Virus record (IMG/VR): IMGVR_UViG_3300025313_000023
Span: 1-50,058 of that record
Direction: 5' to 3' (one strand)
DNA length: 50,058 nucleotides
DNA from: a virus
The notes below the pieces were generated by a model that was given only the letters and a program-made list of their open reading frames with translations, was not told the DNA's origin and made no database searches. Made by a program: the position numbers and the translations under genes. Positions 14,864 to 36,663 of this stretch are shown in pieces. Numbering within the stretch: position 1 is the stretch's first letter; every line of letters begins with the position of its first letter.

Positions 14864-14866
14864 GAC

Positions 14867-14895
14867 TTGTACAGGACCGCCAAGCATGCTACTAT
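14867..14895 (+). promoter_or_regulatory. Promoter for structured RNA
   Basis: TTGTAC (14867-14872), 17-bp spacer and TACTAT (14890-14895). The predicted transcript begins around 14901-14903, just where the 5' strand of the structured RNA starts. It lies directly after the lipoprotein stop. Confidence 0.5.
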
Positions 14896-14901
14896 GAACG
14901 T

Positions 14902-15027
14902 GCCAGTTGTCTCCCCACCCCAAGGGCAAGGCGCATTGGCGAGCCGGGAATCAGGGGCGCGAGCCCCGACCTCCCTGCACAGACGACTGGCACCGACTGG
15001 CCATGCGCCTTGGCCTCGAGGTGGGGA
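14902..15027 (+). ncRNA. Candidate structured, pseudoknotted RNA or 5' leader
   Basis: This 180-bp gap carries extensive complementarity. Bases 14912-14919 pair with 15020-15027 (8 bp). Bases 14925-14940 pair with 15000-15015 (15 bp, two single-base bulges). Between them is GGGGC-GCGA-GCCCC (14954-14967), a GNRA-tetraloop hairpin. The 5' end 14902-14911 can pair with 14982-14991 (10 bp, one G-U), which crosses the long stem as a pseudoknot; a second ACTGGC at 14996 offers an alternative. Transcription should begin at the 5' edge and the next gene's RBS lies 10 nt after the 3' edge. It could be an independent sRNA or a regulatory leader of the gene at 15048. No known RNA family was recognised. 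Confidence 0.65.
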
Positions 15028-15047
15028 GAGACAGGGAGGCGAGCTCG

Positions 15048-15404
15048 ATGTCACCAGCAGCATCCACATCACGAGAGGCCTACCGAGATCATGCAGTCTC
15101 CGGCAGGGCCACCACCCAGCGGGAGCGGATCTTGGCTTTCGTCCGCCGGGCAGGCCAGCCAGTCTCCAGGGCCACGATTGCTCACGCCTTCTCGTTCAGC
15201 TACCGAAACGGGATGTGCTTCGACGCCGGCTTGGACATTCCCCTCGCCTCGGTCTGTGGCCGAGTGAACGCCATGATCGAGGACAAGAGCCTGCGAGTGC
15301 TATCCGAGCCAGCCCGGGACCCATCCACTGGCCATCTCGTCGAGCTGCTCGAGGCGGTCTGGCCGGCGCCCAAGCAGCGGACCTTCGAGGACTTCATGCG
15401 ATAG
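15048..15404 (+). CDS. Winged-helix-like regulatory protein
   Basis: 118 aa from ATG 15048 (GGAGGCGAGCTCG upstream); longer in-frame starts would run through the structured RNA and are rejected. ATTQRERILAFVRRAGQPVSR, IAHAFSF and VCGRVNAMIEDKSLRVLSE (about 22-85) form a winged-helix pattern of the kind that closes with a GRV/NxL recognition helix, common in phage replication-region regulators. Likely DNA-binding. It directly follows the RNA element. Confidence 0.6.
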   Translation: MSPAASTSREAYRDHAVSGRATTQRERILAFVRRAGQPVSRATIAHAFSFSYRNGMCFDAGLDIPLASVCGRVNAMIEDKSLRVLSEPARDPSTGHLVELLEAVWPAPKQRTFEDFMR

Positions 15405-15413: not shown

Positions 15414-15758
15414 ATGACAACAAGAACCGCCCTTCGTTCCATCACGTCTTGTTTCTACTGCGGAGTTCCTATCTCGCCAACTCCGGTTGTCCAGGAAACA
15501 GAAAGACTCGAACTGGATCATTTCTCGCCGCTTTCATGTGGTGGCCCAGATGTCGTCACGAATCTCGTTCCAGCGTGTCAACGTTGCAACCGGGCCAAGA
15601 AGGCTATGCAGCCACAAGAATGGGCCAACGAATGCTTCGATGCCTCCTACGATGCGATTCGTCGCCTACGATGGCTGATAGGCGATTCCGCCTATTGGCA
15701 ACTCATAAATCAACTCAATTTCGTTCAGGCGAACGCCAGTCTAATCGAGCAATCATGA
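15414..15758 (+). CDS. HNH endonuclease
   Basis: 114 aa. FYCGVPI (one Cys, lacking a full CxxC), then LDHFSPLSCGG, NLVPACQRCNRAKKAM: the D-H pair, the Asn and the CxxC-N-x-x-K end are classic for a small HNH nuclease. It binds one divalent metal and cuts DNA. Its stop overlaps the initiator ATG (ATGA), so it is embedded in the replication operon and may be a homing element or a replication/recombination nuclease. Confidence 0.85.
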   Translation: MTTRTALRSITSCFYCGVPISPTPVVQETERLELDHFSPLSCGGPDVVTNLVPACQRCNRAKKAMQPQEWANECFDASYDAIRRLRWLIGDSAYWQLINQLNFVQANASLIEQS

Positions 15759-16603
15759 GCATCGAGGCCTGGAAGGCCGTCTTGCACGCGACTGGATTCA
15801 CGCCTACGGAGAAGCTCGTCCTACTGGCTCTCGCCAATCATGCCGACCCCCTCGGAAGACAGATCCGTCCCGGTGTTCCACGTTTGATGGTCTATACCTC
15901 GCTAGCAGAGCGGACCGTTCGCCGCACAATCTCTGATCTTGTCGTTGCCAGCATCTTGCGGCCGGTCGGAGAGAGAAGCCGATATGGATTCGTAGAGTAC
16001 GAGATGGATCTTGGCCAACTGTCAGATGTGGCGTCTCAAGACCTGCAGGACATGCACCTCTCAAAGAGCAACGGGGTGCCAGTCCGTCCCTCCAGGGGTG
16101 CACCTGAGTCCGCCAGGGGTGCACGTGAATCCCGATCTTCCATTAAGGAACCATCAATTAACCATCATCAGGAACCATCATATCCATCCACTCCAGCCGA
16201 GGCCTATTCGGCACGACCAGATGGCAAGCATCAGAAGGCCATTCTGAGAACTGCTCAATTGACATTCCAGGAATGCACGAAAATCACGGAACCATCAATC
16301 GGGACAGATAGCGAACGGAAGGCAGCTGGCCGACGTTGGTGGATTCCACTCCGCCGAATCTGCGAACTCGCCAAATGGGACGGAGAACGAGTCTGTTGGA
16401 TCATCACTGAGGCTGTAAAGCGACTTGATGGAAGGGTGACAATCGCCGCTCCGGGATCGATCCTGGCCACTTGCGAAGGAATTATCGGGGAATCCAACCG
16501 CGGCACGCTGCCCACGGGCACCATGACAAAGGCAGATCGGGACGCCAAAATGCTGTCGGAGCAGGAGCGGTTCCGGCGCCTGAAGAACGGGGAGCGAAAG
16601 TGA
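15755..16603 (+). CDS. Replication initiator (DnaD/O-like) with N-terminal winged helix
   Basis: 282 aa from ATG 15755, coupled to the HNH stop. Residues 14-75 (TPTEKLVLLALANHADPLGR, LMVYTSLAERTVRRTISDL) are the winged HTH typical of phage replisome organisers. A linker with many Ser/Pro/His follows (about 105-150), then a basic helical C-terminus (WWIPLRRICELAKWDGERVC). The downstream gene is a DnaC-like loader, the O/P arrangement. The linker is encoded by the iteron-like repeats described separately, so the gene may contain its own origin as in lambda. Confidence 0.75.
   Translation: MSIEAWKAVLHATGFTPTEKLVLLALANHADPLGRQIRPGVPRLMVYTSLAERTVRRTISDLVVASILRPVGERSRYGFVEYEMDLGQLSDVASQDLQDMHLSKSNGVPVRPSRGAPESARGARESRSSIKEPSINHHQEPSYPSTPAEAYSARPDGKHQKAILRTAQLTFQECTKITEPSIGTDSERKAAGRRWWIPLRRICELAKWDGERVCWIITEAVKRLDGRVTIAAPGSILATCEGIIGESNRGTLPTGTMTKADRDAKMLSEQERFRRLKNGERK
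16070..16187 (+). other. Candidate replication origin: iteron-like repeats plus AT-rich patch
   Basis: CCAGGGGTGCAC occurs at 16092-16103 and 16113-16124, 21 bp apart, with a degenerate copy near 16071. An AT-rich stretch follows, containing GGAACCATCA at 16147-16156 and 16171-16180 and TTAACCATCA at 16158-16167; a further GGAACCATCA lies at 16288-16297. Iterons followed by an AT-rich region inside an initiator gene is the lambda-type origin layout. The call rests on pattern only. Confidence 0.55.
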
Positions 16604-17484
16604 CAACTTGGCCCTGGAACATCGCCGCCATCGCCGACGGGAATCTGATCGGCGCAGAGCTTAGAGCGATTGAAGTGGGAGCTATGGTCGGCTGCCAGCC
16701 GGAGATGGTGCCCGGCGCGTGCACGAACTGCGGCGGACGCGAATTCATGGCGGCCTGGCGGATCGAGATAAATGGCAATCGTCACTATTTCGGTCCAGGA
16801 TGGGGTGACTGGCGACCGGCCAGCTTGCAGACACAGCCATGCCCCGTATGCCAAGGCTCGGTCCGGATGGAGGCGCTCCAAGACATTTCTGGCTTGGGTG
16901 GCCTCGTCCTTGACGGCAAAGCCGCTGGCAGTCTGCGCCTTGATGCTTTCCGCCCAGAGACCGGCCAAGTTGACGCGCTGGAAGCATGCCGACGGCTACT
17001 CGTTGAGCTCCCCAGTCCGCGCACCTGGGCTCTGTTCTTCGGTGGGTACGGAACGGGAAAGACGCATCTGCTATGTTGCTTGGTGAACGCCTGCCTGCTG
17101 ATGGACGTCGCGGCCCGATACACCACCGCAGAGGGCATCCTGCGTAGCCTTCGGGCCACGTTCGATGGGCGGCACGGCACAGAGGCAATTCGCCAGGAAC
17201 TCGAGAACATCCGCGTGCTCGTCGTCGACGAGATCGATCGCGTGAAGCTCAGCGATTGGGCTGGCGAGACCTTATTCGGCATCCTGAATGCACGATACAC
17301 GCACGGCCTCGCGACTTGGTGCGCGACCAACAAGGCACCCAATGAGCTGGAGGCCTCCGAGGTCTATGGAGCCTTGGTAAGCCGTCTCTCCTCTGGCGAG
17401 ATGGTCGCTATCACAGGGGACGACATGCGGCCAATGGCCCAGACACAGCTTCCCGACCGTCGGGATGGAACGGCGGCGGGGTGA
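16600..17484 (+). CDS. DnaC-like helicase loader (AAA+ ATPase)
   Basis: 294 aa from GTG 16600 (GGGGAGCG upstream, GTGA overlap). Two CxxC pairs (41-44 and 81-84) form a zinc-binding N-terminal region. Walker A is GGYGTGKT (148-155), Walker B VLVVDEIDR (D210/E211), and a sensor region ATWCATNKAP follows. This matches DnaC/DnaI-type loaders that deliver host DnaB helicase to the origin. The palindrome TCCCGACCGTCGGGA lies at the very end of the gene (17451-17465). Confidence 0.85.
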   Translation: MTTWPWNIAAIADGNLIGAELRAIEVGAMVGCQPEMVPGACTNCGGREFMAAWRIEINGNRHYFGPGWGDWRPASLQTQPCPVCQGSVRMEALQDISGLGGLVLDGKAAGSLRLDAFRPETGQVDALEACRRLLVELPSPRTWALFFGGYGTGKTHLLCCLVNACLLMDVAARYTTAEGILRSLRATFDGRHGTEAIRQELENIRVLVVDEIDRVKLSDWAGETLFGILNARYTHGLATWCATNKAPNELEASEVYGALVSRLSSGEMVAITGDDMRPMAQTQLPDRRDGTAAG

Positions 17485-18690: not shown

Positions 18691-18872
18691 AACCTGACTG
18701 GCCAGAAATCGTACGCAATCTATTGACCGCCCTTCCTGACAGTCGTGGTCTGGGCGGGACCGACAACCGATGGTGGAGAAGTCTCACTCTTGAGAATCGG
18801 CGCTATGTAAAACGAATGCGGCGCGAAGCCGAGGCCGCTATCCGCAAGGCAGAGCGAGGAGGCCAGAGATGA
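18687..18872 (+). CDS. Small basic protein, 61 aa
   Basis: ATGA-coupled. Contains LGGTDNRWWRSLTLENRRYVKRMRREAEAAI, a basic helical C-terminus ending KAERGGQR from the recurrent junction. Possibly nucleic-acid binding; no family recognised. Confidence 0.55.
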   Translation: MKPDWPEIVRNLLTALPDSRGLGGTDNRWWRSLTLENRRYVKRMRREAEAAIRKAERGGQR

Positions 18873-19285
18873 GTGACTTGAACGAACGTAGAGCCGGGTT
18901 CGTGTACGATGCCGCTCGGCTTGCGGCGGCTGCTGCAGGCGCTCCTATCGTCCCAGTTGCATGGGCCGAGCGGGAGGATGCCTTTCGCAGTCAGTTTCTC
19001 CAGGTGATTGAGCGACAGTGTGGAGAGCAGCGTTCGAGATCGACGGAGGAATTGCACGGCTCCTGGATGCAGGCGTACTTCGCAATGGGATGGACTTATG
19101 GCCTTATCTACGACCGCGAGTCATTGACCCATCCCGACCTTGTGCCCTATGCCGAGCTTGGCCAACTCGAACAAGATAAGGATGCCGTCTTTATCGCCTT
19201 GTGTGAGATTGCGCGCCAATGGATACGAGGGAGCGAGGAGGCCAGGGATGAGCATCATGCCGGGCGTGATGATAGATCTCCATGA
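18869..19285 (+). CDS. RyR-domain-like protein
   Basis: 138 aa, ATGA-coupled. The stretch WMQAYFAMGWTYGLIYDRES then THPDLVPYAELGQLEQDKDAVF (about 66-105) matches the RyR domain seen in ryanodine receptors and in phage and bacterial proteins of unknown role. Its last 13 codons run past the next gene's start (38-bp overlap), probably because the repeated junction was inserted in another phase. Confidence 0.65.
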   Translation: MSDLNERRAGFVYDAARLAAAAAGAPIVPVAWAEREDAFRSQFLQVIERQCGEQRSRSTEELHGSWMQAYFAMGWTYGLIYDRESLTHPDLVPYAELGQLEQDKDAVFIALCEIARQWIRGSEEARDEHHAGRDDRSP

Positions 19286-20234: not shown

Positions 20235-20501
20235 ATGTTCAAGTTCGATCAGCACGAGAAGGTGAAGGACATCATCTCCGGCTTCACTGGGTTGGTGGTA
20301 GGACGCACCGAATGGGACAACGGCTGCATCAGATACACCGTCGCATCCCAGAAGCTCGACAAGGACGGGAAGGTGATCGCGAGCGAGGCATTCGATGAGT
20401 CTAATCTCGTGAGCCTTCACAAGCCCAACCTCGTCGATCCTGACGAGGGCAGGGCGCGCCCGGGTGGGCCTCCAGTGTACGGAGATCCGAGGCCTCGGTG
20501 A
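20235..20501 (+). CDS. Conserved phage protein (FKFDxxVKDxxSGFxG family)
   Basis: 88 aa from ATG 20235. MFKFDQHEKVKDIISGFTG, VGRTEWDNGCIRYTV and EAFDESNLV match a short SH3-like family widespread in phages and plasmids with no assigned role. It lies between the sortase substrate and the sortase and overlaps the latter as GTGA. Confidence 0.65.
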   Translation: MFKFDQHEKVKDIISGFTGLVVGRTEWDNGCIRYTVASQKLDKDGKVIASEAFDESNLVSLHKPNLVDPDEGRARPGGPPVYGDPRPR

Positions 20502-21334
20502 AACCGATCTGGCCGCCGTACTTCCTGGCGGTAGGCCTGCTGATGATCCTCAGCGGGGCGGGCCTCTATCTGCAGCGATACATGCCGCAGAAGCCGAGGG
20601 CCCGACACGGCATGGCGGCGGTAGTGCCCAAGGCTACCGTCGCCGTGCCAGTGTCCATCCTGGCCATCGAGGCGGCCGGGATGCCTACGCCTCTCCCGAC
20701 GGTCTGGATTGAGCCAACGCCCAACCAGCACGCCGCCTGGACCTACGACGGAGTGGACCTTGCCTCCAGCCAGGTGACGTTCGTGACGGTTGGAGGCATC
20801 GCCCTCAATCCAGTCACGCCCTACCCTTGGACACCGGACTCCCTCGGCTCCGGCATCTTCGACTGGGGCCATCGGACCGGGCTCGCCTGGGCTGACGATC
20901 ATGGGCGGGTCGGATTCTGGATCCACTCGGGCGAGGACGAGACCGCCTATCCCCTCCAACTCGTCCTTGAGCGGACGCCACAGGGATACCTCGTCTCCGC
21001 TGACGAAGGCGAGGCCCGGTTGGCGGCGCTCATCGGAGCACCCGTTACCATCGATCAGGCGGGGTGGGCGGAGAACTCCATCGTGGTGGCCGCCGTGCGC
21101 GTCCCACCGCTTGAGGTTCCGAGCCTCGATGGCCACGTCGAGGACCTAGCCGAGTACCTGGCTGAGCACTATCCCGGTCAGGGATGGGAGCAGATCGTCG
21201 CTCGGGACGATGCGCTGATGCTCTTCTTCTGCGGCCTCCGTCTCGCTGGCGAGGAGAAGAATCCGAGAGAGAACTTCTATCGCCAGGCAAGGTTCATCAT
21301 CGGACTTCTACCAGAGCGAGGAGGCCAGGGATGA
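20498..21334 (+). CDS. Membrane-anchored sortase-like transpeptidase
   Basis: 278 aa from GTG 20498. An N-terminal membrane span (YFLAVGLLMILSGAGLYL) is followed by a linker and a catalytic region with the sortase triad order: His143 in GFWIHSG, Cys245 in MLFFCG and Arg265 in RQARFIIGL. Sortases cut a sorting signal between Thr and Gly and link the protein to the wall or to another protein. The HPGTG protein at 19525 is the obvious candidate substrate. The fold assignment is from motif order and context, and sequence identity to classical sortases looks low. Confidence 0.65.
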   Translation: MKPIWPPYFLAVGLLMILSGAGLYLQRYMPQKPRARHGMAAVVPKATVAVPVSILAIEAAGMPTPLPTVWIEPTPNQHAAWTYDGVDLASSQVTFVTVGGIALNPVTPYPWTPDSLGSGIFDWGHRTGLAWADDHGRVGFWIHSGEDETAYPLQLVLERTPQGYLVSADEGEARLAALIGAPVTIDQAGWAENSIVVAAVRVPPLEVPSLDGHVEDLAEYLAEHYPGQGWEQIVARDDALMLFFCGLRLAGEEKNPRENFYRQARFIIGLLPERGGQG

Positions 21335-24409: not shown

Positions 24410-25645
24410 TCACGAATCAATCAAGCGGAAGTCAATCCTCGGATTCTCAAGGAGCCTGAGTAGGGCGTCCTCATCGGCCTGCCGAAAGTGTAGGAGTACG
24501 ATGTCTCCCTCAGAAACGGGTGCGCCCGCATTTAGGTCGGATGTATCGATGTCCCAGAGATACGGCGTCAGACCATCCTCGCGCGCGAACGTCTCGAATG
24601 CGCGGGTGTCAAGGCCGTAAGGCGGTCGGGCAGCGAAGATGAGACCATCATCAAGCGGGCCCGCCAACTCGATCATCGTTCCGTTCCAGCTTGAAAAATC
24701 ACGACGCCAATCCCCGGCGATCCATAGGCCAATCTCGCCCATGTCTGGGTGATGCATCGTGTGGTAGGCAATCTGATTGCCCTGGCTAATCGCCATCTGA
24801 ATTCGATCTGGCCCCAGAGATTTTGCCGCATCGCCGATGAGGAAGAAGGTCGCGACCGCATTGTGATCTCGGAGCATGGCGAGCATCCGGTCAAAGCTAA
24901 CCACACTCCATCCGTCGTCGATCGTCAGATAGACGGACACGGTTCGTGACGAGATCTTGAAGTCTTGAATGACCCCATCGATTCGCCACCGAGAATTTCC
25001 TAGATAGAGAGGCGCTCGCTCGTAGTGATCCGTGAAATGGACTTGGGAAAGCCACCAGTCTGGATAGTCAACCACCTCGACGGGGCCCTCCTCGCGGAAG
25101 CGAGCTGGGTTCATCTTTGAGATTGTCACGCCATCGATAGGATCATCCATGCTCCAGCGTTCCTTAGTCTCCCAGCTGACCTCGACGACCTCCCGGCGGT
25201 ATTTGACAATGGCATAGATGTCATCGCCCTGCGCGCAATCGACGGTGAGGAATGGCCCTTCCCAGGCCTGTCGGGGACGGAGGATCCAGACTGGCTTTCC
25301 GAGATCCGCGCAGGACATCATGGCCACGCCTCCAACGTAGCCGGGCGTCGCGGGCATCATTCCTGGGGCATACCATACGGCCCGGCCGATACTAACGGGC
25401 GGCGCCGGCGTCATCCAGCTATCGACGGATACCATGCCCGGCACCCAGCCGCCCCACCACCAGTACCCATCGAACTTGTTCTCGTTGTTGCAGATGACGG
25501 CCGCCTGTTCGTAGGGGCATTCATCGCCAGCCGAACCGGGCGTGGTGACGGCCAACATCCAGATGGCGATGCTGATCCCGACCGCAGCTGACATAGCAGA
25601 GCCGAGGGGTCGTTTCGTTTTGTCCTCCCTATGACGGGCTGGCAT
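24410..25645 (-). CDS. Secreted polysaccharide deacetylase (NodB/CE4)
   Basis: 411 aa from ATG 25645 (an in-frame TTG lies 6 bp upstream). Signal/anchor about residues 18-40. Residues 42-235 are a Trp- and Cys-containing region of unknown fold. The NodB domain shows the standard motifs: TIDDG (241-245), HTMHHPD (295-301, the H-x3-H metal site) and RPPYG (340-344). CE4 enzymes remove acetyl groups from peptidoglycan or other glycans. Beside an endolysin it may prepare the wall for lysis or alter the surface. Its promoter lies so close that the mRNA may be leaderless. Confidence 0.8.
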   Translation of the reverse strand: MPARHREDKTKRPLGSAMSAAVGISIAIWMLAVTTPGSAGDECPYEQAAVICNNENKFDGYWWWGGWVPGMVSVDSWMTPAPPVSIGRAVWYAPGMMPATPGYVGGVAMMSCADLGKPVWILRPRQAWEGPFLTVDCAQGDDIYAIVKYRREVVEVSWETKERWSMDDPIDGVTISKMNPARFREEGPVEVVDYPDWWLSQVHFTDHYERAPLYLGNSRWRIDGVIQDFKISSRTVSVYLTIDDGWSVVSFDRMLAMLRDHNAVATFFLIGDAAKSLGPDRIQMAISQGNQIAYHTMHHPDMGEIGLWIAGDWRRDFSSWNGTMIELAGPLDDGLIFAARPPYGLDTRAFETFAREDGLTPYLWDIDTSDLNAGAPVSEGDIVLLHFRQADEDALLRLLENPRIDFRLIDS

Positions 25646-25652
25646 CCTCAAT

Positions 25653-25681
25653 ATTATGGCCTAACCCTGCCACATGCGCAA
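25653..25681 (-). promoter_or_regulatory. Promoter of deacetylase, likely leaderless
   Basis: Minus strand -35 TTGCGC (25676-25681), 17-bp spacer, -10 CATAAT (25653-25658). The -10 ends 8 bp before the ATG, so transcription would begin at or next to the start codon. Confidence 0.5.
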
Positions 25682-25731
25682 GGCGTAAGGTGGCCTGATT
25701 TGGGATGGCTTGGGGCGTACTTTAGACCTAT

Positions 25732-26109
25732 TCAAGCGGCCCGCTTGCGGCGGTCCGGACCTACCCGGATGGCCTCTAGGGTACGCCCGTGCCGCTTCTC
25801 GGCCAGGGCCTCGTGGCGAGCTATGGCCTCCGTCAGGCCGGCCATGGCATCGGTGAGGCTAGCGAGGCTGGCCTCCCCGTGCTCCATGCCCTCCCTGCGC
25901 TGGGAGCGGTCGAGGGCGAGGGCCTCCTTCATGGCCGCGTCCCGGTTATCCATCGATTTGGCGAAGGCTTCGGTCAAGTCCTTGATGGTCCTATGGAAAA
26001 GGATGTCCCTGGCCTCACGCTCCTTGCTGTCCAGGCGGCGCCACACGATCGCGAAGATGATGAACGCGCCGACTGCGCCGGCCTGAAAGAGGATCTGCTC
26101 GATCGTCAT
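25732..26109 (-). CDS. Membrane-anchored coiled-coil protein of lysis cassette
   Basis: 125 aa from ATG 26109, coupled to the endolysin stop (ATGA). One N-terminal span (ILFQAGAVGAFIIFAIVWRRL) then a long charged helix (residues 30-105) with a basic end. This N-anchored helical layout recalls spanin-like or holin-accessory proteins, but no spanin motif is visible. The stop codon sits in a GC-rich palindrome (CAAGCGG-C-CCGCTTG) that could act as a weak terminator. Confidence 0.55.
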   Translation of the reverse strand: MTIEQILFQAGAVGAFIIFAIVWRRLDSKEREARDILFHRTIKDLTEAFAKSMDNRDAAMKEALALDRSQRREGMEHGEASLASLTDAMAGLTEAIARHEALAEKRHGRTLEAIRVGPDRRKRAA

Positions 26110-27140
26110 GGGATGTCGTGGACCTTGTAGGCGGGCGCCCACATCCAGCCGACTTCGACGCCCATGCCCACGCGCCACCAGTCGCCGCCAATGCCGCCGC
26201 CCGTCTCGAGCCGTTCGAAGACCGTGCCTGCCGGAAGCAGCCGGATCACCGGGTAGGAAACGCCCGGCCCGGTCCGCAGGTTGGCCTGCAGCACGAGCGA
26301 CCAGTAGTCATGGCCAGAAGGCGGGATGGGAAGATCGCCCCAGGTGAAGTTGGCGATCGCCGACTTCTGCTCATCGGTCGCCAGGTCCAGCGCCCACACG
26401 CTCGCCCCCGCCAGCCCCAACTCCACGGAGCGGCGGAAGAACGCCGTCAACTGCGCTGGCGTGGCCCGCCAGGGGCCGGCCGCTAGGTAGGTGGGGGCGA
26501 CCCCGATGTAGGGCAGCAGCCGTACCTGGGCGTATTGCTTGACGCTCATCTCAAGCTGGATCCCCCCGCCGTTGATCCGGTTGTCGCCCAGGAAATAGAC
26601 CTGCGGGGACCACCCGTCCATGGCGGGGGCGAAGATCCGCACCGGGAAGTCTGGCTGGTGGGTCAGCGGCCAGCGATAGGAGCACAGCGTCAAGAACAGA
26701 CCCGGCCCGATCCGGTTAGCCTCTCGAGCGTACTCGTCCGCCCATCCGGGCTTGTTACGGTATTGCGCTTCGGCGTCGACCTGGTAGTGCTCCATGCCGT
26801 GCTTCCGCGCGACCTGGATAGCCTTGACAGCTTCCTTGGCCGGCGTGCAGGAAATCGGCACGGGGATGCTGGGGACGTAATCCCAAATGATCCGGCGCCC
26901 CCACAACCATCCCCAGCCATCGACTGCGATGCCGGCTTCCTTCAGTGCGCCGACCGTCGCCGGAAGCAGTTCGTAATTGGTCCGGCTGCCCCCCTCCCAC
27001 TTCTCGCGGTTGCCGTCAACGATCTTGATGGACACCCGGCTGAGGCCGAGCCGCTTGGCTTCGGCGACCTGCCAGCGCGGATCCCCGCCCTGCCAGTTCC
27101 GCAGCTTCCACACCATCGCCTGCTTGCCAGTTGGGATCAT
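26106..27140 (-). CDS. Endolysin: TIM-barrel glycosidase-like plus SH3 domain
   Basis: 344 aa from ATG 27140 (GAGGAAAGC upstream). Residues 8-250 resemble a glycoside-hydrolase barrel of the GH25-like kind (WQVAEAKRLGLSRVSIKIVDG; MEHYQVDAEAQYR with a likely acidic pair; MDGWSPQVYFLGD; GLAGASVWALDL). Residues about 275-344 are a bacterial SH3 domain (LVLQANLRTGPGVSYPVIRL, DWWRVGMGVEVGWMWAPAY). It would cut peptidoglycan, with the SH3 domain holding the wall. No signal peptide, so export through a holin is expected. Confidence 0.8.
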   Translation of the reverse strand: MIPTGKQAMVWKLRNWQGGDPRWQVAEAKRLGLSRVSIKIVDGNREKWEGGSRTNYELLPATVGALKEAGIAVDGWGWLWGRRIIWDYVPSIPVPISCTPAKEAVKAIQVARKHGMEHYQVDAEAQYRNKPGWADEYAREANRIGPGLFLTLCSYRWPLTHQPDFPVRIFAPAMDGWSPQVYFLGDNRINGGGIQLEMSVKQYAQVRLLPYIGVAPTYLAAGPWRATPAQLTAFFRRSVELGLAGASVWALDLATDEQKSAIANFTWGDLPIPPSGHDYWSLVLQANLRTGPGVSYPVIRLLPAGTVFERLETGGGIGGDWWRVGMGVEVGWMWAPAYKVHDIP

Positions 27141-27147
27141 GCTTTCC

Positions 27148-27375
27148 TCACAAGGCCTCGGCCAATAGTACCATCAGCTCCGGATCGTAGACAAATACAT
27201 GACCGCCGATGTTCTGTGTCCCCCGTTGAGCGCTGATGGAGGTCGCACGCTTTCCCTGGTAACGCTTGGCTACAGCGCCCTGGCCGCTTCCTGTGGGCGT
27301 GGGTGTCGAAGTGACCGCTTCGTAATACTCCTCCCACTGCTTCTCAGTCAAGCTGGTTCCCGGTTCGACCATCAT
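27148..27375 (-). CDS. Small protein before endolysin, 75 aa
   Basis: ATGATG start at 27375 with GGAGGATAG upstream. It begins MMVEPGTSLTEKQWEEYYEAV, then a Thr/Pro and Lys/Arg-rich middle and a hydrophobic end (HVFVYDPELMVLLAEAL). It sits 4 bp after the tail protein stop and 8 bp before the endolysin. Could be a short tail-tip or lysis accessory protein; no family recognised. Confidence 0.5.
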   Translation of the reverse strand: MMVEPGTSLTEKQWEEYYEAVTSTPTPTGSGQGAVAKRYQGKRATSISAQRGTQNIGGHVFVYDPELMVLLAEAL

Positions 27376-27379
27376 GCGC

Positions 27380-28894
27380 CTATCCTCCGCCTAGCCTCTT
27401 CATGACGCTGCTGAACAGACTCTCCCGCTCAACGGTGACGGCCAGCCGACCGCCCCGAACCGCCAGGGTCTCAATGTAGTGCAGGTGATTCTCCTCGATG
27501 TTGCTGTGGCGCTTGACTGGCGTCGGTAACATGAAGGCCGCCGAGAAGAGATAGTTATCCACCTGGATTTCCTCCATGGGAAGCTCCCGCCCCTGGGCCT
27601 CATGAATGACCGTCCGGCCTTCGGCCCGATCGACATAGGTGTTGTGATGATACTTCACCAACCGCTGCCGGGCCTTGATGACCGGAGGCCCGTGGACGAT
27701 CAGGAAAAAATAGAACTGGGACGGATCGGCGTCGTCATGGACGAGCGTCACAGTGTCGGCTGTGAACGCCACGCTGACATCGATCAGACCAAGCTGAAGC
27801 GGAGGAGCCGCGCCGCTGATCGATGCGTAGACCTCATCGAACTCATGCTGGTAGACTTCCCGGCTGGCACCCGCGTTGCCATCGAAGTTGAAGCGGGTGG
27901 CGATGACAGCCCGCTCCGTCGGCCCCGTCGCAAATCCGTCCGAGAACCCGAAGCCTTGAGTGTTGCCCACGTCAGTAGAGACAACGTCCTGTGTGCTCTC
28001 TGTCAGGGCAGCCGAGACCATCTCAATCGCCTCCGGGGTCCAGGTCATCCCGGTCAATGTGAAGGGATTGAGATTCGTCTGCGTCAGGCCGTGAGCGATG
28101 AAGTGTCGGCCCGTCATCACGATGAGCACGAACTTCCGGCTCCCGTTCCGCTCCAGCCAGTTGAGCTCGACGTCCATGTCGTTGAAGGCTTCGACCCGGG
28201 CACGGACGAGGGCCGCCGTGTCGCTGATGATCGCCAAGCACTCCGTCCGGCGACAGTACATGGCGGCATTCGATGTTCCCGCAGCGCTGTCCTCGAAGTT
28301 GGCCCATACGGCATTCTGGTCGGCGGCCGCCCCATAGGAGGCACCGAGACAGACCTCGACGTCCGCGCTCGTCGTCTCGAATGCCGTCTTGCCTGATCCG
28401 AGGACCTCGACGAAGGTTGGCCTGAATGGCGTGGTGTAGGTCTGGACACCCGTCGCTCCGGGCTCTGTGATTTCGATGGCGTCGACCTCAACCCCGGAAA
28501 TGGCCTCGACGATCACGGCCATGTCGGCCGTGAACTGCTGCAGAATCTCATATTCGAATCCGTCGTCCAACATCCGCACGATGGCCAGCTTGCCCGTGGT
28601 GGTTGTCGGGCCGCTCTGGCGCACAACGCACGACGTATTCCAGAGGGCCGAACCAGTGTTATAGGGATCGGCGGCGTCGGTCCGGTGGGCGCTCCAGCAG
28701 TAGTTCTTCCCATTGTCGAGCGCGACGCCGCGGCCCTCCATGAGGGTCGTGCGGGTCGGGCCAGCATCCACAATGAAGTTGGCGACGGACCATCGAGTCT
28801 TGACGATGGTGGGGCGGAAGCCAATGGTGTTGACCTGGACGAGTGTCCCGACTACCGCTGTTCCTGGCTGGAAGACCGTTACCTTTGTCGCCAT
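27380..28894 (-). CDS. Tail structural protein, distal (fibre-like)
   Basis: 504 aa, beta-rich throughout with no catalytic motif. Segments such as WSAHRTDAADPYNTGSALW, VEAFNDMDVELNWLERNGSR and FNFDGNAGASREVYQHEFDEV suggest a multi-domain virion protein. It is the last large gene of the tail block before lysis genes, where fibres and receptor-binding proteins usually lie. It could therefore contact the host, but this is inference from order. Confidence 0.55.
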   Translation of the reverse strand: MATKVTVFQPGTAVVGTLVQVNTIGFRPTIVKTRWSVANFIVDAGPTRTTLMEGRGVALDNGKNYCWSAHRTDAADPYNTGSALWNTSCVVRQSGPTTTTGKLAIVRMLDDGFEYEILQQFTADMAVIVEAISGVEVDAIEITEPGATGVQTYTTPFRPTFVEVLGSGKTAFETTSADVEVCLGASYGAAADQNAVWANFEDSAAGTSNAAMYCRRTECLAIISDTAALVRARVEAFNDMDVELNWLERNGSRKFVLIVMTGRHFIAHGLTQTNLNPFTLTGMTWTPEAIEMVSAALTESTQDVVSTDVGNTQGFGFSDGFATGPTERAVIATRFNFDGNAGASREVYQHEFDEVYASISGAAPPLQLGLIDVSVAFTADTVTLVHDDADPSQFYFFLIVHGPPVIKARQRLVKYHHNTYVDRAEGRTVIHEAQGRELPMEEIQVDNYLFSAAFMLPTPVKRHSNIEENHLHYIETLAVRGGRLAVTVERESLFSSVMKRLGGG

Positions 28895-28895
28895 T

Positions 28896-30518
28896 TCAGA
28901 CCGTCGGCGGTATCACGGGCGGAGCCGCCTGCTTCAGGAAGAAGGCCCGACCGACAGCCGTGGTGCAGCGCCTCCCATATATCTGCGGCAGCCATCGGAA
29001 GCTCTGGGCGTCCCCAAGTTTCGTCATGTCCACAATGAGGTCCCACGGCCGGCGATCAGCGTCCAGTACCCGGGCGACGACGGTCGTGTTGGCATCCCGC
29101 TTCTGGCTTCCGACGTACTCACCCTGGTCATCAAGAATGTCGCGCACTTCGGCGGTCATCGATTGCGTGCCAGTCACGGCCGTCTGATTGTAGATCGAGC
29201 GCGAGAGCGTCCACACGAACCCTCGGACGAAGACCTCCAGGTATTCATCCCCGCTGCCGCCGCCGAGCGTCATGCTTGGCCGCGGAAATGCTCGCAGGTC
29301 GAGGTACTGCTGGACCGTCTGGTCGGCCACCGGATTTCCCTGCACCTCGCCCCCGCCAAGAACGAGCTGCGAGATCGGATATTGTTCTTGGCTCGGGACA
29401 TTCTGCAGAAGGGTCGATCGATCAACAGTGCCATCCCCGTCCACATCGGCCCGCATGATCCCCTTATTGACGACCGGCTCCAGGCTGATCGTGAATCGGT
29501 CTGGGGGAAGGTTGTAGGTCATCTCGACAATCATGCCTTCGAACTCAGGTTCCAGCCCATATCCCCATGCTTCGATCCACCGCCCTAGACCGCGCTCAAA
29601 CATCTCCTTCAACACGGTCTCGCGGCTTCGGATCTTGAAGCGGCAGCTGTAGTATCCGCCCTCGGCATGCTCCTCGGGAGCGAACTCCGAGAACACAGCA
29701 TCGATGAAGCCCGGCTGGTTCTCTTCGACGAGGTTGAGCAGGAACTTGTAGCCGGTCTCCTCTGTAGCCACCTCGTTCGTTGCAACTGTGCCAGAGTCGT
29801 CGTCGAGCATCCAGTAGGCGATTGGACCCAAGGACATGATGGCCTTCCTCATGTCAAGGTTTCTAGCGTTGAAAACGCCGAGTAGATCCGAGGCCGACAA
29901 TACCTCATCAAAAACTGCGGCATGGGCGAGGAAGCCGCTGTGGGGGATAATCGGCGTTGTGTTGTAGGCTCCGAGCGTCGTTAGTGTGCTGGTCAGCGGG
30001 TTAGCAACCGCCCCGAGCGCGGTCTGGGTTGCCCCTACCTGGGCGCCATTCAGGTATGCTTTGAATTGATCGGCTGCCTCATCCCACGTCATGGCCATGA
30101 GAAACCAGTCCGTCGTTGCTCCAAGACTGGTATCGATCACCAAATCGGTGATCCCACTACCAACATGTAAGAATCTCAACTGATTGGCGACGCTTGTTTT
30201 CTCAAGGCTCATCCCGTCGGCGGCTGCATTTCGGAGGTTTATGAACATTCTCTCCGTTGCATCGGCCCAGACTGCAGCGCTGGCCATCTTGACCCAGATA
30301 AGAGCAGAGCCTTTCGCAAGGTTCAATTCCGAGGCGAGCTTCGTTGTGTAGATGGTGACATAGTCACCGCCGTCGAAGGAGAACGCGCTCCGCCCGTCTC
30401 CGATGCCAGCCGCGCCGAGCGTCGGTGCGGCAGCCCCAGCACCTAGCGCGCCATCAAATGCACCGGTGATCAACCTAGTTTTGACCTTGTCGTTCCGGAG
30501 CGTGATTGAATGGATCAT
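28896..30518 (-). CDS. Tail protein with N-terminal LamG-like domain
   Basis: 540 aa. Residues about 20-225 look like a concanavalin/LamG sandwich (RSAFSFDGGDYVTIYTTKLA, ALIWVKMASAAVW, FKAYLNGAQVGA, LAHAAVFDEVLSASD LL pattern), a carbohydrate-binding fold. The rest (from about 240) is a tail-tip type region (YYSCRFKIRSRETVLKEMF, GVDGDGTVD-like ADVDGDGTVDRS, PWDLIVDMTKLGD). The sugar-binding domain points to host or matrix attachment. Confidence 0.6.
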   Translation of the reverse strand: MIHSITLRNDKVKTRLITGAFDGALGAGAAAPTLGAAGIGDGRSAFSFDGGDYVTIYTTKLASELNLAKGSALIWVKMASAAVWADATERMFINLRNAAADGMSLEKTSVANQLRFLHVGSGITDLVIDTSLGATTDWFLMAMTWDEAADQFKAYLNGAQVGATQTALGAVANPLTSTLTTLGAYNTTPIIPHSGFLAHAAVFDEVLSASDLLGVFNARNLDMRKAIMSLGPIAYWMLDDDSGTVATNEVATEETGYKFLLNLVEENQPGFIDAVFSEFAPEEHAEGGYYSCRFKIRSRETVLKEMFERGLGRWIEAWGYGLEPEFEGMIVEMTYNLPPDRFTISLEPVVNKGIMRADVDGDGTVDRSTLLQNVPSQEQYPISQLVLGGGEVQGNPVADQTVQQYLDLRAFPRPSMTLGGGSGDEYLEVFVRGFVWTLSRSIYNQTAVTGTQSMTAEVRDILDDQGEYVGSQKRDANTTVVARVLDADRRPWDLIVDMTKLGDAQSFRWLPQIYGRRCTTAVGRAFFLKQAAPPVIPPTV

Positions 30519-30808
30519 GGGAATGTCTTAGAGACATCCGCCAAGTTGGCAGCTATCGCGGCGCACCGGGCCAGCAAGTCAAGTTGTTGCTGCTCATCAT
30601 AGTCATCCCCAGCGACATCGCGGACCTGCTGGATGAGATCGGAGCGGATCTCGGCGTTGGTCTTCGTGACGCCGTATCGTTGGCTGATGCTCTTGACGAG
30701 CGCCCCATTCCGCATGACATCGAACGTGATCTGGATGAGCTGACCTTCATCGGGATCACGAAGGAGAGGCTCGACGACGACGTTGGCAAGCGCGTAGACC
30801 GTGCTCAT
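30515..30808 (-). CDS. Small tail protein, 97 aa
   Basis: 97 aa, coupled on both sides by 4-bp overlaps. Contains LIQITFDVMRNGALVKSISQRYGVTKTNAEIRSDL, a pattern like short tail-tip proteins found beside distal tail genes, then a helical end. No enzymatic motif. Confidence 0.55.
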   Translation of the reverse strand: MSTVYALANVVVEPLLRDPDEGQLIQITFDVMRNGALVKSISQRYGVTKTNAEIRSDLIQQVRDVAGDDYDEQQQLDLLARCAAIAANLADVSKTFP

Positions 30809-32853
30809 GCCGCACCCCTCAAAAACAAGAAGCGATAGTGCATGAAGACCTCGACGGCCATTGCTTCGCCCAAACTAGCGACCAAAGGCTCAATGGCCCA
30901 TCCTTCCGTGGAGAAGTGCTCCATCAGGAAGTAGAGCCGAGTGCGCTTGCCCAGGTTGCGGAACTCGATCGGCTTATTGAAGCGCGGCCACTCCTCGGAG
31001 GGCGAGATCGTGCTATCGGCATGGTACTGGAACTTCACGGTCCGATTGGCGATGCAGCCGTTGTCGAGTTCCAGGTAGCTCCCGCCACGCAGGGCCGAGC
31101 TACCTCGACTGGAGTCCGTGACCGGATCGTCGACCCCGACGCTACCCTCCTGCACCGGAAAGAGGTACAGCCAAGCCCAGTCAAGGACGGCTGCCGATCC
31201 GCCGGCGCGCTCGGCCAGAAGATGAATGGCGACATTCAATGGCTCGAGCGGATCGTTGGCGTAGACCCGGGAGCGCGGAATCTGGATCAGCCCAAGGTCG
31301 GCGACCTCCAAGCCAAGATCGGCCGACAGGCTGCTGAACTCAAGGATGTCCGTGTGGGGATCGAAGTCCAGTTCCTCTCCGACGAAGACCCTTGCCGTCA
31401 TTGTGACATCGCCAGCCACGCCCCCGACCTGCTGGAAGGCGACGAGGACTCGATACTCGCCGCGGTAGGCCTGGACGACGTCGGTGCCAGTGAACATGAC
31501 CCTCGTTGTCAGGGTGCCGTCCGTGGCGAACGTGGTGCGGGCCTTGGCGCCGCCGGGATAGCCGATGTCCGAGACAGCCGAAGTGTCCGTGCCGTAGGTG
31601 ACGGCCCACGCGCCCGGGTTGTCCTGGTTCCCGGCATTCAGCATCGGCTCGAAGTCGTCGAGATCGACGACACCATCCTCTGAGTCTGACTTGGCCCCGA
31701 TGAGGATCCTCGAGATGTTCGGCTTGTCGGGAGTCTCATCACCCCCGCTCGGCGCCCACATACGGATGCAAGTCAGAGGATAGGTGTCTCCCTCGAGCGA
31801 AGCCGCAGGAACCTCGACGTAGGGCGTCCGCTGGGCATAGATCGTCGCTCCGTTCTTCTGGGGCAGGGTGGTCGTCGAAGTCACGGAGACAATGATGATC
31901 CGGATCCAATAGGCGTTCACGCCGTTGATGACCGTCTTGGCCCAGCCCGTCAGACGGTCGGGGAATAGATTGATGGCGAAGTCTCCGCCGTCCTGACTGG
32001 CGAAGAAGTCATCGTCGTCGATTGCCTCGCCGCCCTCAATGCGGTTGATCGTGTATTCGGTTCCGAGCGTCAGGTCCGTCCAGGCGGCACCGCTCCAATA
32101 CTGGAGCTTGGTGTCCCAGTTCGTCACTGCCCCGATCTTGAGGCCGTAGCAGACGTGCTTGAAGGCGATGTCCGTCGATCCGGCGTAGTGCAGATCACTC
32201 GCCGCCGGCGCGGCGGGCCACAGAGCGGTGCCATCTGCGGCGCTGATCAGGTTGGCGCTGAAGGTCCCTGCGCTATCGTCGAAGGCGAAGACGTGGGTGA
32301 CGTCGCCATCGTCACGGAAGTTGGCGACCCAGACGATCTGAGGTGAGGCGGGGCCGTTGCTCGGACCGAGCGTGATCGCCGGCCGGCCGAGGACGGTCGT
32401 GTCGGTGCTCCCGAGCTGTCCAGGTGGCTTGGTCCGCCAGGGATGCTCACGGACGAGCGTCATTTGAACTGGCGTCAACACATGGCCAGCCCGGGCGGGC
32501 TGATCAAAGACGCTCGGGAAGTCGAGCTGGGATACCTCGCGGACGAACGCATATCGTTCATTGCTCTCGCAGTCGCCTTGCTGGTGGATGTAGACGTGCC
32601 GTGTCCACATCCCAGTCTGCGAGAACTCGTTTGCGCGATTGATGAGTCTCTTGAGACGCTGGATTTTCACTGCCAGCCCATCGGGCGATTGCGCCGCCAG
32701 CGAGAAGCGCCACTGCTCCGTGATGGCAGGCTCGTCCCCAAGCGGGAGCGCGGTGCTCTTCGAGCCGTCTGGCAGGATGCAAAGCGATCGAGGATCGAAC
32801 AGGTCGATTTCCTCGTTGCCGTCGCTCAGGACGAAGACGGGGATCTGGCTCAT
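30805..32853 (-). CDS. Distal tail / tail-tip protein, 682 aa
   Basis: 682 aa. Residues 1-150 (DGNEEIDLFDPRSLCILPDG, PSVFDQPARAGHVLTPVQMTL) resemble a siphovirus distal-tail start. The centre (about 160-370) has a long beta-rich insert with YWSGAAWTDLTLGTEY and a metal-like GGDETPD. A C-terminal part has FNKPIEFRNLGKRTRLYF. It follows the tape measure, the expected place for Dit/tail-tip proteins. Confidence 0.65.
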   Translation of the reverse strand: MSQIPVFVLSDGNEEIDLFDPRSLCILPDGSKSTALPLGDEPAITEQWRFSLAAQSPDGLAVKIQRLKRLINRANEFSQTGMWTRHVYIHQQGDCESNERYAFVREVSQLDFPSVFDQPARAGHVLTPVQMTLVREHPWRTKPPGQLGSTDTTVLGRPAITLGPSNGPASPQIVWVANFRDDGDVTHVFAFDDSAGTFSANLISAADGTALWPAAPAASDLHYAGSTDIAFKHVCYGLKIGAVTNWDTKLQYWSGAAWTDLTLGTEYTINRIEGGEAIDDDDFFASQDGGDFAINLFPDRLTGWAKTVINGVNAYWIRIIIVSVTSTTTLPQKNGATIYAQRTPYVEVPAASLEGDTYPLTCIRMWAPSGGDETPDKPNISRILIGAKSDSEDGVVDLDDFEPMLNAGNQDNPGAWAVTYGTDTSAVSDIGYPGGAKARTTFATDGTLTTRVMFTGTDVVQAYRGEYRVLVAFQQVGGVAGDVTMTARVFVGEELDFDPHTDILEFSSLSADLGLEVADLGLIQIPRSRVYANDPLEPLNVAIHLLAERAGGSAAVLDWAWLYLFPVQEGSVGVDDPVTDSSRGSSALRGGSYLELDNGCIANRTVKFQYHADSTISPSEEWPRFNKPIEFRNLGKRTRLYFLMEHFSTEGWAIEPLVASLGEAMAVEVFMHYRFLFLRGAA

Positions 32854-34403
32854 TGTCTCTGCACTTCTTGTCTCATGGATTCGAGCATGGCGATCCCGTC
32901 AACGTCCCTCGTGATCGTCGGCTGGAAGATGATCGTCTTCGTCTGATAGCTCTGGTTGGCGTTGTTCGTGATGCCAGGACTACCGATCTGCGGCACCATC
33001 TGCTGTGCTGGCGTCTGAATGATCACGCGCTCTCCAGAGGAGGCCCCGAACGTAAATCGGTCGTTGGGATAACCCGGCGGCACCCTCACGTCCAGGCCGT
33101 GCTGGCCCGTCAGCGCGACGAGCGGCGCCCCGATTGTCATCCCCTCCAACTTGCGGGCAAGTTCGATCGCCTTCTTGAGCCTGCCGATGATGTCATCGAT
33201 GTCGCCCCCATACTGCTGGACGAGCTTTCGAGCCGTGCCCCACAGTGGCTTGTCGCCAGCCGCCACTGGTACGGCGGCCGCGGCGATGACCGTATTGTCG
33301 AACTCCTGCCTGAGTTTGCCAGCCTCTTCGGTGACCGGCGTCAGAGCGTCCCGGGCAGCAGTGAAGCTGGCAGGCGCGCCCTCAAGCGGAACACGGCCGA
33401 CGATCTCTCCCGGCTGGGGGCCCTGGATGCTCCCTGCCTGAAGGAGCTTTAGACCCTCTATGCTGGCCACCTGTGATTTGTAGTAATTGTCGCTGGCAGC
33501 CTGAAGGTCGCCAAGGCTTCTCTTGGCTTCGTCAAGCCCCTCAGAGATGTCTCCTCCAGCTGTCTTTACGGTGCCTCCCAATGATCTCATCTGGTCTTCC
33601 CAGGATCCTGTGGGCGCTTCCAGATCGAGGAGGCTAATTCTCAATGCTTCTAATCTGTCCGCTGCGTCTGTCAGGCCCTTCCCCTCTGCGAGATCAAGGG
33701 CCGCCTCGGCTAGGAAGTTAAGGAACATGGCCCCTTGACTGAGTGCCGGGACGGCCTCCAAGCCGACCGTATTCTTCAGGACCGTCCATGAGTCGTTGAG
33801 AGTGTCGAGCTGCAGCCGGAGCGTCTCCGTCTTTTGAATCTCCTCCTCGGTCACGACAAGACCATCACGGACAGCTGCGGCGTTGGCCCTGATCGCGTCT
33901 CCGCCCTCCTGAAGTAGCGGATCGAGGGCGGCCCAGTTGCGTCCGAATATCTTGGCCGCCTGAGCCGCTCTCTCGGTCGGATCCTGTATGGCATTCAGGC
34001 GATCAGCAAGGTCCGCGATGCTATCAACGGATGGGGCAAATCCATTCTTCGTCGCCAGCGCAAGCGCGGTCTCGACGGATCCCATGCTGATGCCGAAGTC
34101 GTCGGCGATCTGGACGATGCGACTGAAGTCTTCAGCCGTCGTTCCAGTGGCCCGGGAGGCATCAAGAATGGACTTGTTGTAGGCGATGAGGGAGCCGACC
34201 GTCTCATCGAAAATCCCTTTGGCTGTCCTGAATGCCTGGCCGACGATTTGCATGGCCGCATTGAAGCCGGTGAAGGCCAGCGCGACCTTCGTTCCAGTGT
34301 CGCCGAAGCCGCTGAGTGCCTTCTTGCTCTTGGCTATGTCGCTCTGGAACTTGGCTGAATCCTTCGCGACCAACTTAACGCCGGTCTCTTTCAGCTCTGC
34401 CAT
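32850..34403 (-). CDS. Tape measure protein
   Basis: 517 aa, Ala-rich and helical at the N-terminus (VAKDSAKFQSDIAKSKKALSG, ALAFTGFNAAMQIVGQAF with a hydrophobic patch), with the ASRATGTTAEDFSRIVQIADDFG motif common in tape measures. It follows the chaperone genes directly. At about 1.5 angstrom per residue it predicts a tail near 75-80 nm, fairly short for a siphovirus. Start overlaps none of its neighbours except the downstream tail gene. Confidence 0.8.
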   Translation of the reverse strand: MAELKETGVKLVAKDSAKFQSDIAKSKKALSGFGDTGTKVALAFTGFNAAMQIVGQAFRTAKGIFDETVGSLIAYNKSILDASRATGTTAEDFSRIVQIADDFGISMGSVETALALATKNGFAPSVDSIADLADRLNAIQDPTERAAQAAKIFGRNWAALDPLLQEGGDAIRANAAAVRDGLVVTEEEIQKTETLRLQLDTLNDSWTVLKNTVGLEAVPALSQGAMFLNFLAEAALDLAEGKGLTDAADRLEALRISLLDLEAPTGSWEDQMRSLGGTVKTAGGDISEGLDEAKRSLGDLQAASDNYYKSQVASIEGLKLLQAGSIQGPQPGEIVGRVPLEGAPASFTAARDALTPVTEEAGKLRQEFDNTVIAAAAVPVAAGDKPLWGTARKLVQQYGGDIDDIIGRLKKAIELARKLEGMTIGAPLVALTGQHGLDVRVPPGYPNDRFTFGASSGERVIIQTPAQQMVPQIGSPGITNNANQSYQTKTIIFQPTITRDVDGIAMLESMRQEVQRQ

Positions 34404-34404
34404 C

Positions 34405-34569
34405 TCACTTCACCCTATCGTGGCGCGCGGCGACGGCCTGCGCGTACATCTGGATGCGGTACGCGGCGATGGTCACGGCCTGATCGCTTCCCTCAAGGTC
34501 CAGGAAAGTATGGAGCGGATAGCCCGCCCATCTTGCAGCGAGCATCCGCTCCATTTCCATCGAGAACAT
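34405..34569 (-). CDS. Second tail-assembly chaperone (possible frameshift product)
   Basis: The clearly protein-like stretch in this frame is the C-terminal 54-75 residues (AFRPLYRGRDLFSWPVPKSG then ERMLAARWAGYPLHTFLDLE, helical, ending VAARHDRVK). The frame has an ATG at 34569 but no good RBS, and the protein-like signal begins before it, near 34640. In lambda-type tails the second chaperone is made by programmed frameshift from the first. Here a +1 (or -2) shift near the end of the 167-aa gene would be needed. Confidence 0.5.
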   Translation of the reverse strand: MFSMEMERMLAARWAGYPLHTFLDLEGSDQAVTIAAYRIQMYAQAVAARHDRVK

Positions 34570-34603
34570 CACGCCCGACTTCGGGACCGGCCAGGAGAAA
34601 AGA

Positions 34604-35107
34604 TCACGGCCTCGGTAGAGTGGCCGGAAAGCGCTCCACCGCGGATGCGATGGATTCCTCCGAGGGCTCGACGCGCTCGAACACCGCCCGCCTGAGCAGG
34701 AGAAGGTCCTCGAGGTCGGGGAGCAGGATCCGGCTGACGTAGACGACCTTGTCCTCCGCCGGCAGAATGACGGGCGGCGTCTGCCTTCCGGCCCATTCTC
34801 GCAGCTCCTCGACCTGGCGGATCCACATCTCGTCTGGGGGAAGCACGACTCCTCGGTCGATGGCGAAGTCGATCGCCAGGAGGCCGATCCGGTAGTCGTA
34901 GTCGAGCATCTCGGCCTGGTAGGCCGGATGCGCGGGATTCGATTCCATGCGCTTCTGGCCGCCATAGTCGATCTCCTGAGTCGGAGGCAGGGGTGCCTTC
35001 GGATGCGTGGCCCGCCAGTCCTGGACGAGGAGAGTCGGGATCCGCCTCACCTGGAGCGTCAGCCCCAGGTGAGGGAACTCTACAGGCCGCAGGTCACTCG
35101 CGCTCAC
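34604..35107 (-). CDS. Tail-assembly chaperone
   Basis: 167 aa, coupled to the tail-tube stop (ATGA). VEFPHLGLTLQVRRIPTLLVQDW and the acidic, helical middle (YDYRIGLLAIDFAIDRGVVL, EMWIRQVEELREWA) fit G-type chaperones, which coat the tape measure during tail assembly. Position between tail tube and tape measure is canonical. Confidence 0.65.
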   Translation of the reverse strand: MSASDLRPVEFPHLGLTLQVRRIPTLLVQDWRATHPKAPLPPTQEIDYGGQKRMESNPAHPAYQAEMLDYDYRIGLLAIDFAIDRGVVLPPDEMWIRQVEELREWAGRQTPPVILPAEDKVVYVSRILLPDLEDLLLLRRAVFERVEPSEESIASAVERFPATLPRP

Positions 35108-36663
35108 AGAACTCCAGCCTTGCCCAGCAGGACCACACCGTCCGTCCCGTTGGCGGCTAGGCCGACGCAGAGGATGTTGTTGGCATCGATCGCCGCTCCG
35201 GCGTGCGGGACGGCGATGCGATTGATGCGGTCCACGACAGGCCAGTTGATGATCCGGCGGCCGCCGCTGTCCTGGCGGGCCCAGTCTGCTCCACCGTTCC
35301 AGGTGCAGAAGATGCGACCGGTCGGGGTCGCATCGTCGTGGACGAAGAAACCGACCTCTTCCGTGGCGAACACGATGTCCCTAACCTGACCGGCGCCTTC
35401 GCCCGAGAAGTGCTTTTCAGTCCAGCTCGCTCCGCCGTTCAGGGTGTAGTAGACCCGGCCGCATCCCACGCCGCATCCGACCCAGATCTCGTCCTTGCTC
35501 TTGACGGCATGCGAGATGATGTCGACAGCTAGGCCGACGGGCGAATCTGTGGTCGTTCCCCAACTCACACCCCGATCAAGGCTGCGGATCACAGTGTCGC
35601 TGGCGCCGACCGAGACGATGACCTCATCCTTGTCGCCGTCGATCCGGAAGAGATTGGATGTGGTCGCGTCGCCGGCGTCCATGACGCTGACGCCCGCCGT
35701 GATGTCCGTCGATCGGTAGATGTATCCGCCCTCGCCGCAGAAAAAGACCTCACGCGGCGAGAGAACGTACATATCAAGCGGGTCCTTGTTGGCGACGAAG
35801 CCAGTCGTGACCTTGGTGAACGTGCCGGGGATGCCAGTGTCGGCGTCGATCACCGCCCAGTAGTAGGCTCCATCGCCGAGGACCACGACCTTGTCGCCCA
35901 CGATGCCGATGGCCAGCGGATCTTCGGTTGCCCCAAGGCCGCTGATATTGACCTGCGACCAGTTCAGGCCGCTGTCCAGCGTGTAGATCAGTTCGGCTGG
36001 AAGACCGGGCGATCCGCCGCCGCTGGACTTCACGATGACATATGCCTTCTGGGTCCCATCGTCGGCCGGGCCGCAGTTGCCGCATTCAACCTCGGAACCG
36101 AAGACGCCGTCGACCGCTTCGTTGTCGACCTGCGTTGAGGCTTCCTCGGAGATGTTGATCGGACCGACGGGATAGATCTTATCCAGCGTGATGGAGATCG
36201 CGTCCTCGACCTGATTGTCATCCGCCCAGGCCGTGCGCGCTCCCATATCGACCTCGGTCGCCTCGGCCAGGCTGTAGATCTCGACCCAGTCGCCCCAGCC
36301 GTTGAGGAAGTCCGATAGGTCTTGGCATTGACCGCTCAGAAGGTAGACGTTGAACGGACATGGAATCTCGCCGAGTTGCCAGGGCAGGGGCCCGTGCTTC
36401 TCGAGGGCATGGAGCGTGGCTGTCGGGAGAGCCGGTGCCGTGACCTTGCGGCCTACGCTACGGAAGGCCTTGATGCGGAATGGATCCGGAACCTGGATGC
36501 TCTCGATGCCGCCCGAGATCGGACGGGTCACGCCATCGAGCATGAGGTACTGCGCATCTAGGCCTGCATATCGAACTGGATTGTTGGGCGCTGGCCCGCC
36601 CGGCTGCAGGAAGAGACGGCGCGCTTGCTGGGTACTGATCACATCGCCTGAAATCTTGGGCAT
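35104..36663 (-). CDS. Tail tube protein fused to Asp-box (BNR-like) propeller
   Basis: 519 aa. Residues 1-180 have the size and place of a major tail tube subunit (LQPGGPAPNNPVRYAGLDAQ, NGWGDWVEIYSLAEATEVDMGAR). The remaining 330 residues contain Asp-box-type motifs S/T-x-D/N-x-G-x-x-W: TLDSGLNW (228-235), SLDRGVSW (361-368), TLNGGASW (407-414), TWNGGADW (454-461), as in sialidase or Ycf48-like beta-propellers. Such a fold would project from the tail. It has a promoter just upstream. That this is the main tube protein is inferred from gene order. Confidence 0.65.
   Translation of the reverse strand: MPKISGDVISTQQARRLFLQPGGPAPNNPVRYAGLDAQYLMLDGVTRPISGGIESIQVPDPFRIKAFRSVGRKVTAPALPTATLHALEKHGPLPWQLGEIPCPFNVYLLSGQCQDLSDFLNGWGDWVEIYSLAEATEVDMGARTAWADDNQVEDAISITLDKIYPVGPINISEEASTQVDNEAVDGVFGSEVECGNCGPADDGTQKAYVIVKSSGGGSPGLPAELIYTLDSGLNWSQVNISGLGATEDPLAIGIVGDKVVVLGDGAYYWAVIDADTGIPGTFTKVTTGFVANKDPLDMYVLSPREVFFCGEGGYIYRSTDITAGVSVMDAGDATTSNLFRIDGDKDEVIVSVGASDTVIRSLDRGVSWGTTTDSPVGLAVDIISHAVKSKDEIWVGCGVGCGRVYYTLNGGASWTEKHFSGEGAGQVRDIVFATEEVGFFVHDDATPTGRIFCTWNGGADWARQDSGGRRIINWPVVDRINRIAVPHAGAAIDANNILCVGLAANGTDGVVLLGKAGVL

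Follow-up and report, generated by a model that had tools for sequence, protein, structure and literature searches.

In the window (the whole stretch of 50,058 bases that was analysed, a virus record), the segment from position 14900 to ~15047 on the + strand is tentatively read as a structured 5′ leader of the early operon, one that would work as a cis-acting folding switch. The helices, their significance, their position, their energetics and a complementarity to the Shine-Dalgarno (SD) sequence were established in this analysis; the switch would operate as follows. Transcription would start near 14900, and the 5′-terminal strand would pair first with 14981-14993, forming helix a. Once 15003-15029 had been made, a long hairpin composed of stems b and c would form, either displacing helix a or trapping it as a pseudoknot. 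Such a refolding, on which a protein or the timing of the ribosome or polymerase may exert a bias, would set how strongly the downstream gene is expressed, most simply via access to the AGGGAGG motif and the start codon.

The non-coding gap that contains this RNA spans 184 bp (14864-15047), as defined by the end of the upstream ORF at 14863 and, on the other side, the next start supported by homology, at 15048, a start codon backed by alignment with six homologues. The first-pass annotation, made from the sequence alone, had described a gap of about 180 bp in the early region, and both the size and the placement hold, with replication genes lying downstream. The first gene of the early operon (15048..15404, +) encodes a 118-aa protein assigned to PHROG 1123 (phrog_1123, E 6.9e-9), a family of unknown function, and is read here as a small winged-helix-like regulator. 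The search for this family in the window's own record gave nothing at first look, and the assignment relies on hmmscan of the protein. Genes for an HNH endonuclease (15414-15758), an O-like replication initiation protein (15755-16603) and a DnaC-like helicase loader (16471-17484) follow on the + strand, and the replication genes begin 0.7 kb downstream. On its minus strand the record carries a terminase and a weak match to a portal; it is without a close cultivated relative, its terminase finding one phage at 26% identity.

Helices between the candidate promoter and the start codon

A candidate promoter, TTGTAC-17 nt-TACTAT with an extended -10 element (TG at 14887-14888), was read from the sequence at 14867..14895 (+). 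It matches 7 of 12 consensus bases and is absent from the consensus-scan list; the sigma70-like promoter proposed at first pass is thus plausible, with its extended -10 present, but weak. Its credibility is somewhat raised by the occurrence of TGNTATGAT in related loci, at the matching place relative to their leader. Transcription is predicted to start at ~14900-14903, in which case helix a would use the extreme 5′ end of the transcript.

Helix a, the crossing helix, pairs 14900..14912 with 14981..14993 (+) over 13 bp, including one G-U pair. The 10-bp version described earlier (14902-14911 with 14982-14991) is contained within it, the helix being correctly recognised and its length underestimated. 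An 8-nt partial second copy of the core of its 3′ strand (CGACTGGC) occupies 14994-15001. Outer stem b pairs 14910..14919 with 15020..15029 (+), and is likewise present but 10 bp long instead of the 8 bp first reported. Inner long stem c pairs 14927..14936 with 15003..15012 (+) over 10 continuous bp, to which the minimum free energy (MFE) fold adds 5 more across two bulges, in agreement with the 15-bp stem noted initially; the GCGA (GNRA-type) tetraloop hairpin was also recovered at 14954-14967 (+), with 5 bp (14954-14958/14963-14967) and the loop at 14959-14962.

The 8-nt loop sequence CCTCCCTG at 14970..14977 (+) is perfectly complementary to CAGGGAGG at 15032-15039, in the ribosome-binding region of the 15048 gene, and is a possible anti-SD sequence. 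The likely SD of this gene is AGGGAGG at 15033..15039 (+). After the long hairpin come GAGACAGGGAGG and the start codon. An intrinsic-terminator attenuator, consisting of a hairpin and a U-tract, was not found, there being no U-tract after 15029 and none listed by the scan.

The MFE of the gap RNA is -85.6 kcal/mol, compared with -63.2 ± 3.8 kcal/mol for shuffled sequences (z -5.85; 0 of 200 shuffles), and the 150-nt segment at 14901 has the lowest z among 500 such segments along the + strand of the record. For the three best strand-disjoint helices the sum is 84.5 versus 55.7 ± 5.1 in shuffles, a value reached by 0 of 4000, which together with the z-scores bears out the initial impression of more pairing than expected by chance. 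A comparable fold was seen at a single further site, which lies within an ORF near 20.6 kb, and the structure is therefore rare but not unique in the record. This second site is a hairpin of ~22 bp at 20603-20654 (+), within the ORF 20498-21334, with a fold z of -6.0 for 20490-20690.

The reverse complement of the gap is as strongly folded (z -6.9 versus -6.5), so folding does not distinguish an RNA from a DNA-level inverted repeat, nor one strand from the other, and strandedness depends on the weak promoter. Given this equal folding of the opposite strand, and the database and copy searches described below, we infer an RNA function from position.

Competing folds and access to the Shine-Dalgarno region

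All energies refer to nested folds at 37 °C, which may not be the temperature of the host. In isolation, helices a, b and c have energies of -22.2, -19.8 and -16.2 kcal/mol, respectively, and helix a and the combined stems b+c constitute two strong, nearly strand-disjoint systems that compete. In the nested MFE of the growing transcript, helix a is held from ~14991 to 15019, and b+c is formed by ~15023. The nested-fold energies predict sequential, mutually exclusive states, helix a and then b+c.

Helix a crosses the pairing of the long hairpin; an H-type pseudoknot would need both to coexist. On one side it abuts outer stem b without a linker, with 3 nt common to both, and on the other side a connector of 5-9 nt leads from helix a to stem c. 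By a distance estimate, a side-by-side packing of the helices would be needed for this connector to span the full long hairpin, and the linker lengths make the coexistence of helix a with the full long hairpin doubtful. The energies do not decide for or against the pseudoknot called probable at first pass, as a pseudoknot with a 10-bp helix a on the long hairpin comes to ~-88 kcal/mol after a penalty of 9.6 kcal/mol, which is a rough constant, versus -87.8 kcal/mol for the hairpin alone.

The SD region and the start codon are mostly paired in the predicted ensembles of both modelled states, and a simple on/off switch through SD release is therefore not predicted. Leaders that sequester the ribosome-binding site, either riboswitches or protein-autoregulated leaders, likewise place alternative helices and an anti-SD complement before the start codon; the window RNA differs from them in being without a known aptamer or ligand and in having predicted states that do not clearly free the SD.

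Searches for a known class or for copies of the window RNA returned none. Rfam 15 has no family at gathering score in the region, in line with the first-pass statement that no known RNA class was recognised, and a permissive Rfam search gave only a chance match to mir-3622 (15.6 of 78 bits). An HDV-like ribozyme, considered by hand, was dropped since inner stem c crosses where the HDV-like fold has no crossing. Searching phage records with the region by megablast and distant blastn gave no matches or 36-nt chance pieces, an exact 19-mer from stem c had no match among all viral contigs, and the window itself contains a single copy.

Another structured RNA at the matching site of related phages

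The O-like and DnaC-like proteins used as bait found no relatives, and the regulator gave no alignments in genome contigs; regulator and terminase baits reached related viral contigs. Among those found with the terminase, L006-L008 stop short of the RNA position and L009 has a different structured RNA instead, referred to here as RNA-B. RNA-B was located at L009:3391-3505 (-), L011:2554-2668 (+) and L002:4735-4841 (+), in each case preceded by an extended -10 promoter, with PHROG 1123 genes downstream. These are three distinct sequences (within the compared region L003 does not differ from L002), among which a block of ~36 nt is nearly invariant. The PHROG 1123 homologue follows RNA-B at once in L009, after a 49-aa gene in L002, and after a further intervening gene in L011, and these differing genes do not suggest a gene-specific translational switch.

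RNAalifold analysis of the three RNA-B sequences gave two consecutive stem-loops and 4 pairs changed on both sides. The same 4 compensatory pairs were obtained when the main helix was evaluated as a named structure, compared with 0-1 in slid controls, and 4 of 500 column shuffles reached this value. In an alignment of three sequences, this covariation is modest evidence. The second helix, which crosses with the 5′ end, is 97% paired and has no two-sided change. RNA-B has no match in Rfam at gathering score, and a search of viral contigs with its pattern returned only the known contigs and chance coding matches.

The window RNA, like RNA-B, lies between a promoter and a PHROG 1123 gene; in both, an extended -10 promoter (in the window a candidate one) is followed by a leader of similar length, and the 5′-terminal strand is able to form a crossing helix. 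They differ in helix order, spacing and loops. Against the RNA-B covariance model R1 the window RNA has a best + strand score of 0.4 bits with filters off, versus 100-141 bits for the three members used to build the model, and the two have no sequence similarity; RNA-B is thus a positional counterpart of the window RNA and not a homologue. The compensatory changes in RNA-B at the same position indirectly support reading the window RNA as a leader.

Overall, a cis-acting leader switch is favoured by a structure that is extreme for this genome and has two competing helix systems, by its location in the gap that separates a possible promoter from a start codon, with an 8-bp SD complement inside the structure, and by RNA-B, which is promoter-proximal, precedes the same regulator family and has 4 compensatory pairs in three relatives. 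It is weakened by the single sequence, the folding of the reverse strand and the pairing of the SD in both states, and by RNA-B being non-homologous and preceding differing genes. Structured leader RNAs from uncultured phages are, to our knowledge, still few. It is rather improbable, although conceivable, that the window RNA belongs to a novel class of phage leader in which the metastable 5′-terminal helix would time the early operon co-transcriptionally, with RNA-B as its functional counterpart at the same position. If the leader is real, then together with RNA-B it would point to leader RNAs as a routine means of controlling an early regulator in phages of this group, with unrelated RNAs having come to fill one and the same role.

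Antitermination, DNA-level and other readings of the gap

A put-like element, or another cis-acting antitermination or anti-pausing element that would act on RNA polymerase independently of the next gene, is an unlikely explanation. The put RNA of phage HK022 is ~70 nt long, has two stem-loops and is present in two copies per genome (PMC9378689). The window RNA resembles HK022 putL (PMC9378689) in that both are structured and come straight after an early phage promoter, and RNA-B fits such an element both in preceding three different gene arrangements, as would be the case if the next gene did not matter, and in its two consecutive stem-loops from RNAalifold. However, the window RNA is around twice the length of put at ~130 nt, is predicted to fold into a single long hairpin, with which a 13-bp helix competes, and not into two consecutive stem-loops of ~70 nt in total, and occurs in single copy, whereas HK022 has two. 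Downstream terminator-like sites are no commoner than chance.

A DNA-level feature, comprising operator sites or an origin, is given about the same low likelihood. The core GTGCCAGTYG occurs at 14900, inverted at 14984, and as an 8-nt partial third copy at 14994, with one core copy at the predicted start site, and inverted repeats look alike on either strand, which is consistent with the equally strong reverse strand. There are 20 core matches in the window (≤1 mismatch), but 15% of real window 10-mers reach that number and the other matches are imperfect; an enrichment of the operator motif was dropped after this control. Operator sites would account neither for the nested 27-nt repeat b+c nor for the GNRA hairpin and the anti-SD complement. 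The sole basis for an origin is the nearness of the replication genes 0.7 kb downstream, and no iterons were seen.

A discrete trans-acting small RNA of ~130 nt, transcribed from its own promoter in the gap, has a lower probability again. The fold is compact and independent, and occupies a non-coding gap that has a possible promoter before it; against this, the 3′ end has no U-tract terminator, the hairpin running instead into GAGACAGGGAGG and the start codon, and there is no Rfam match. Least probable is that these are strong inverted repeats without function, arisen by chance or left as a relic. In its favour, the fold inside the ORF at 20.6 kb indicates that strong hairpins arise here without an evident regulatory role, and the structure is kept in no homologue; against it, none of the 4000 shuffles reaches the helix set and the structure fills exactly the one gap from possible promoter to start codon.

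Elsewhere in the window, another RNA does match a known family: the int-alpA RNA (RF02996) at 45425-45491 (-) scores 58.7 bits against a gathering score of 35.8 and immediately precedes a small ORF whose start is at 45404; a scan of the two neighbouring ORFs found no integrase or AlpA family. At 18869-19285 (+) a small protein is encoded that matches the RyR domain (PF02026, E 2.7e-8). Glycan-related genes are distributed across 24410-43211 (-) of this phage record, and include a polysaccharide deacetylase (24410-25651, -), a glycosyltransferase (38718-41153, -) and an FkbM-type methyltransferase (42471-43211, -).
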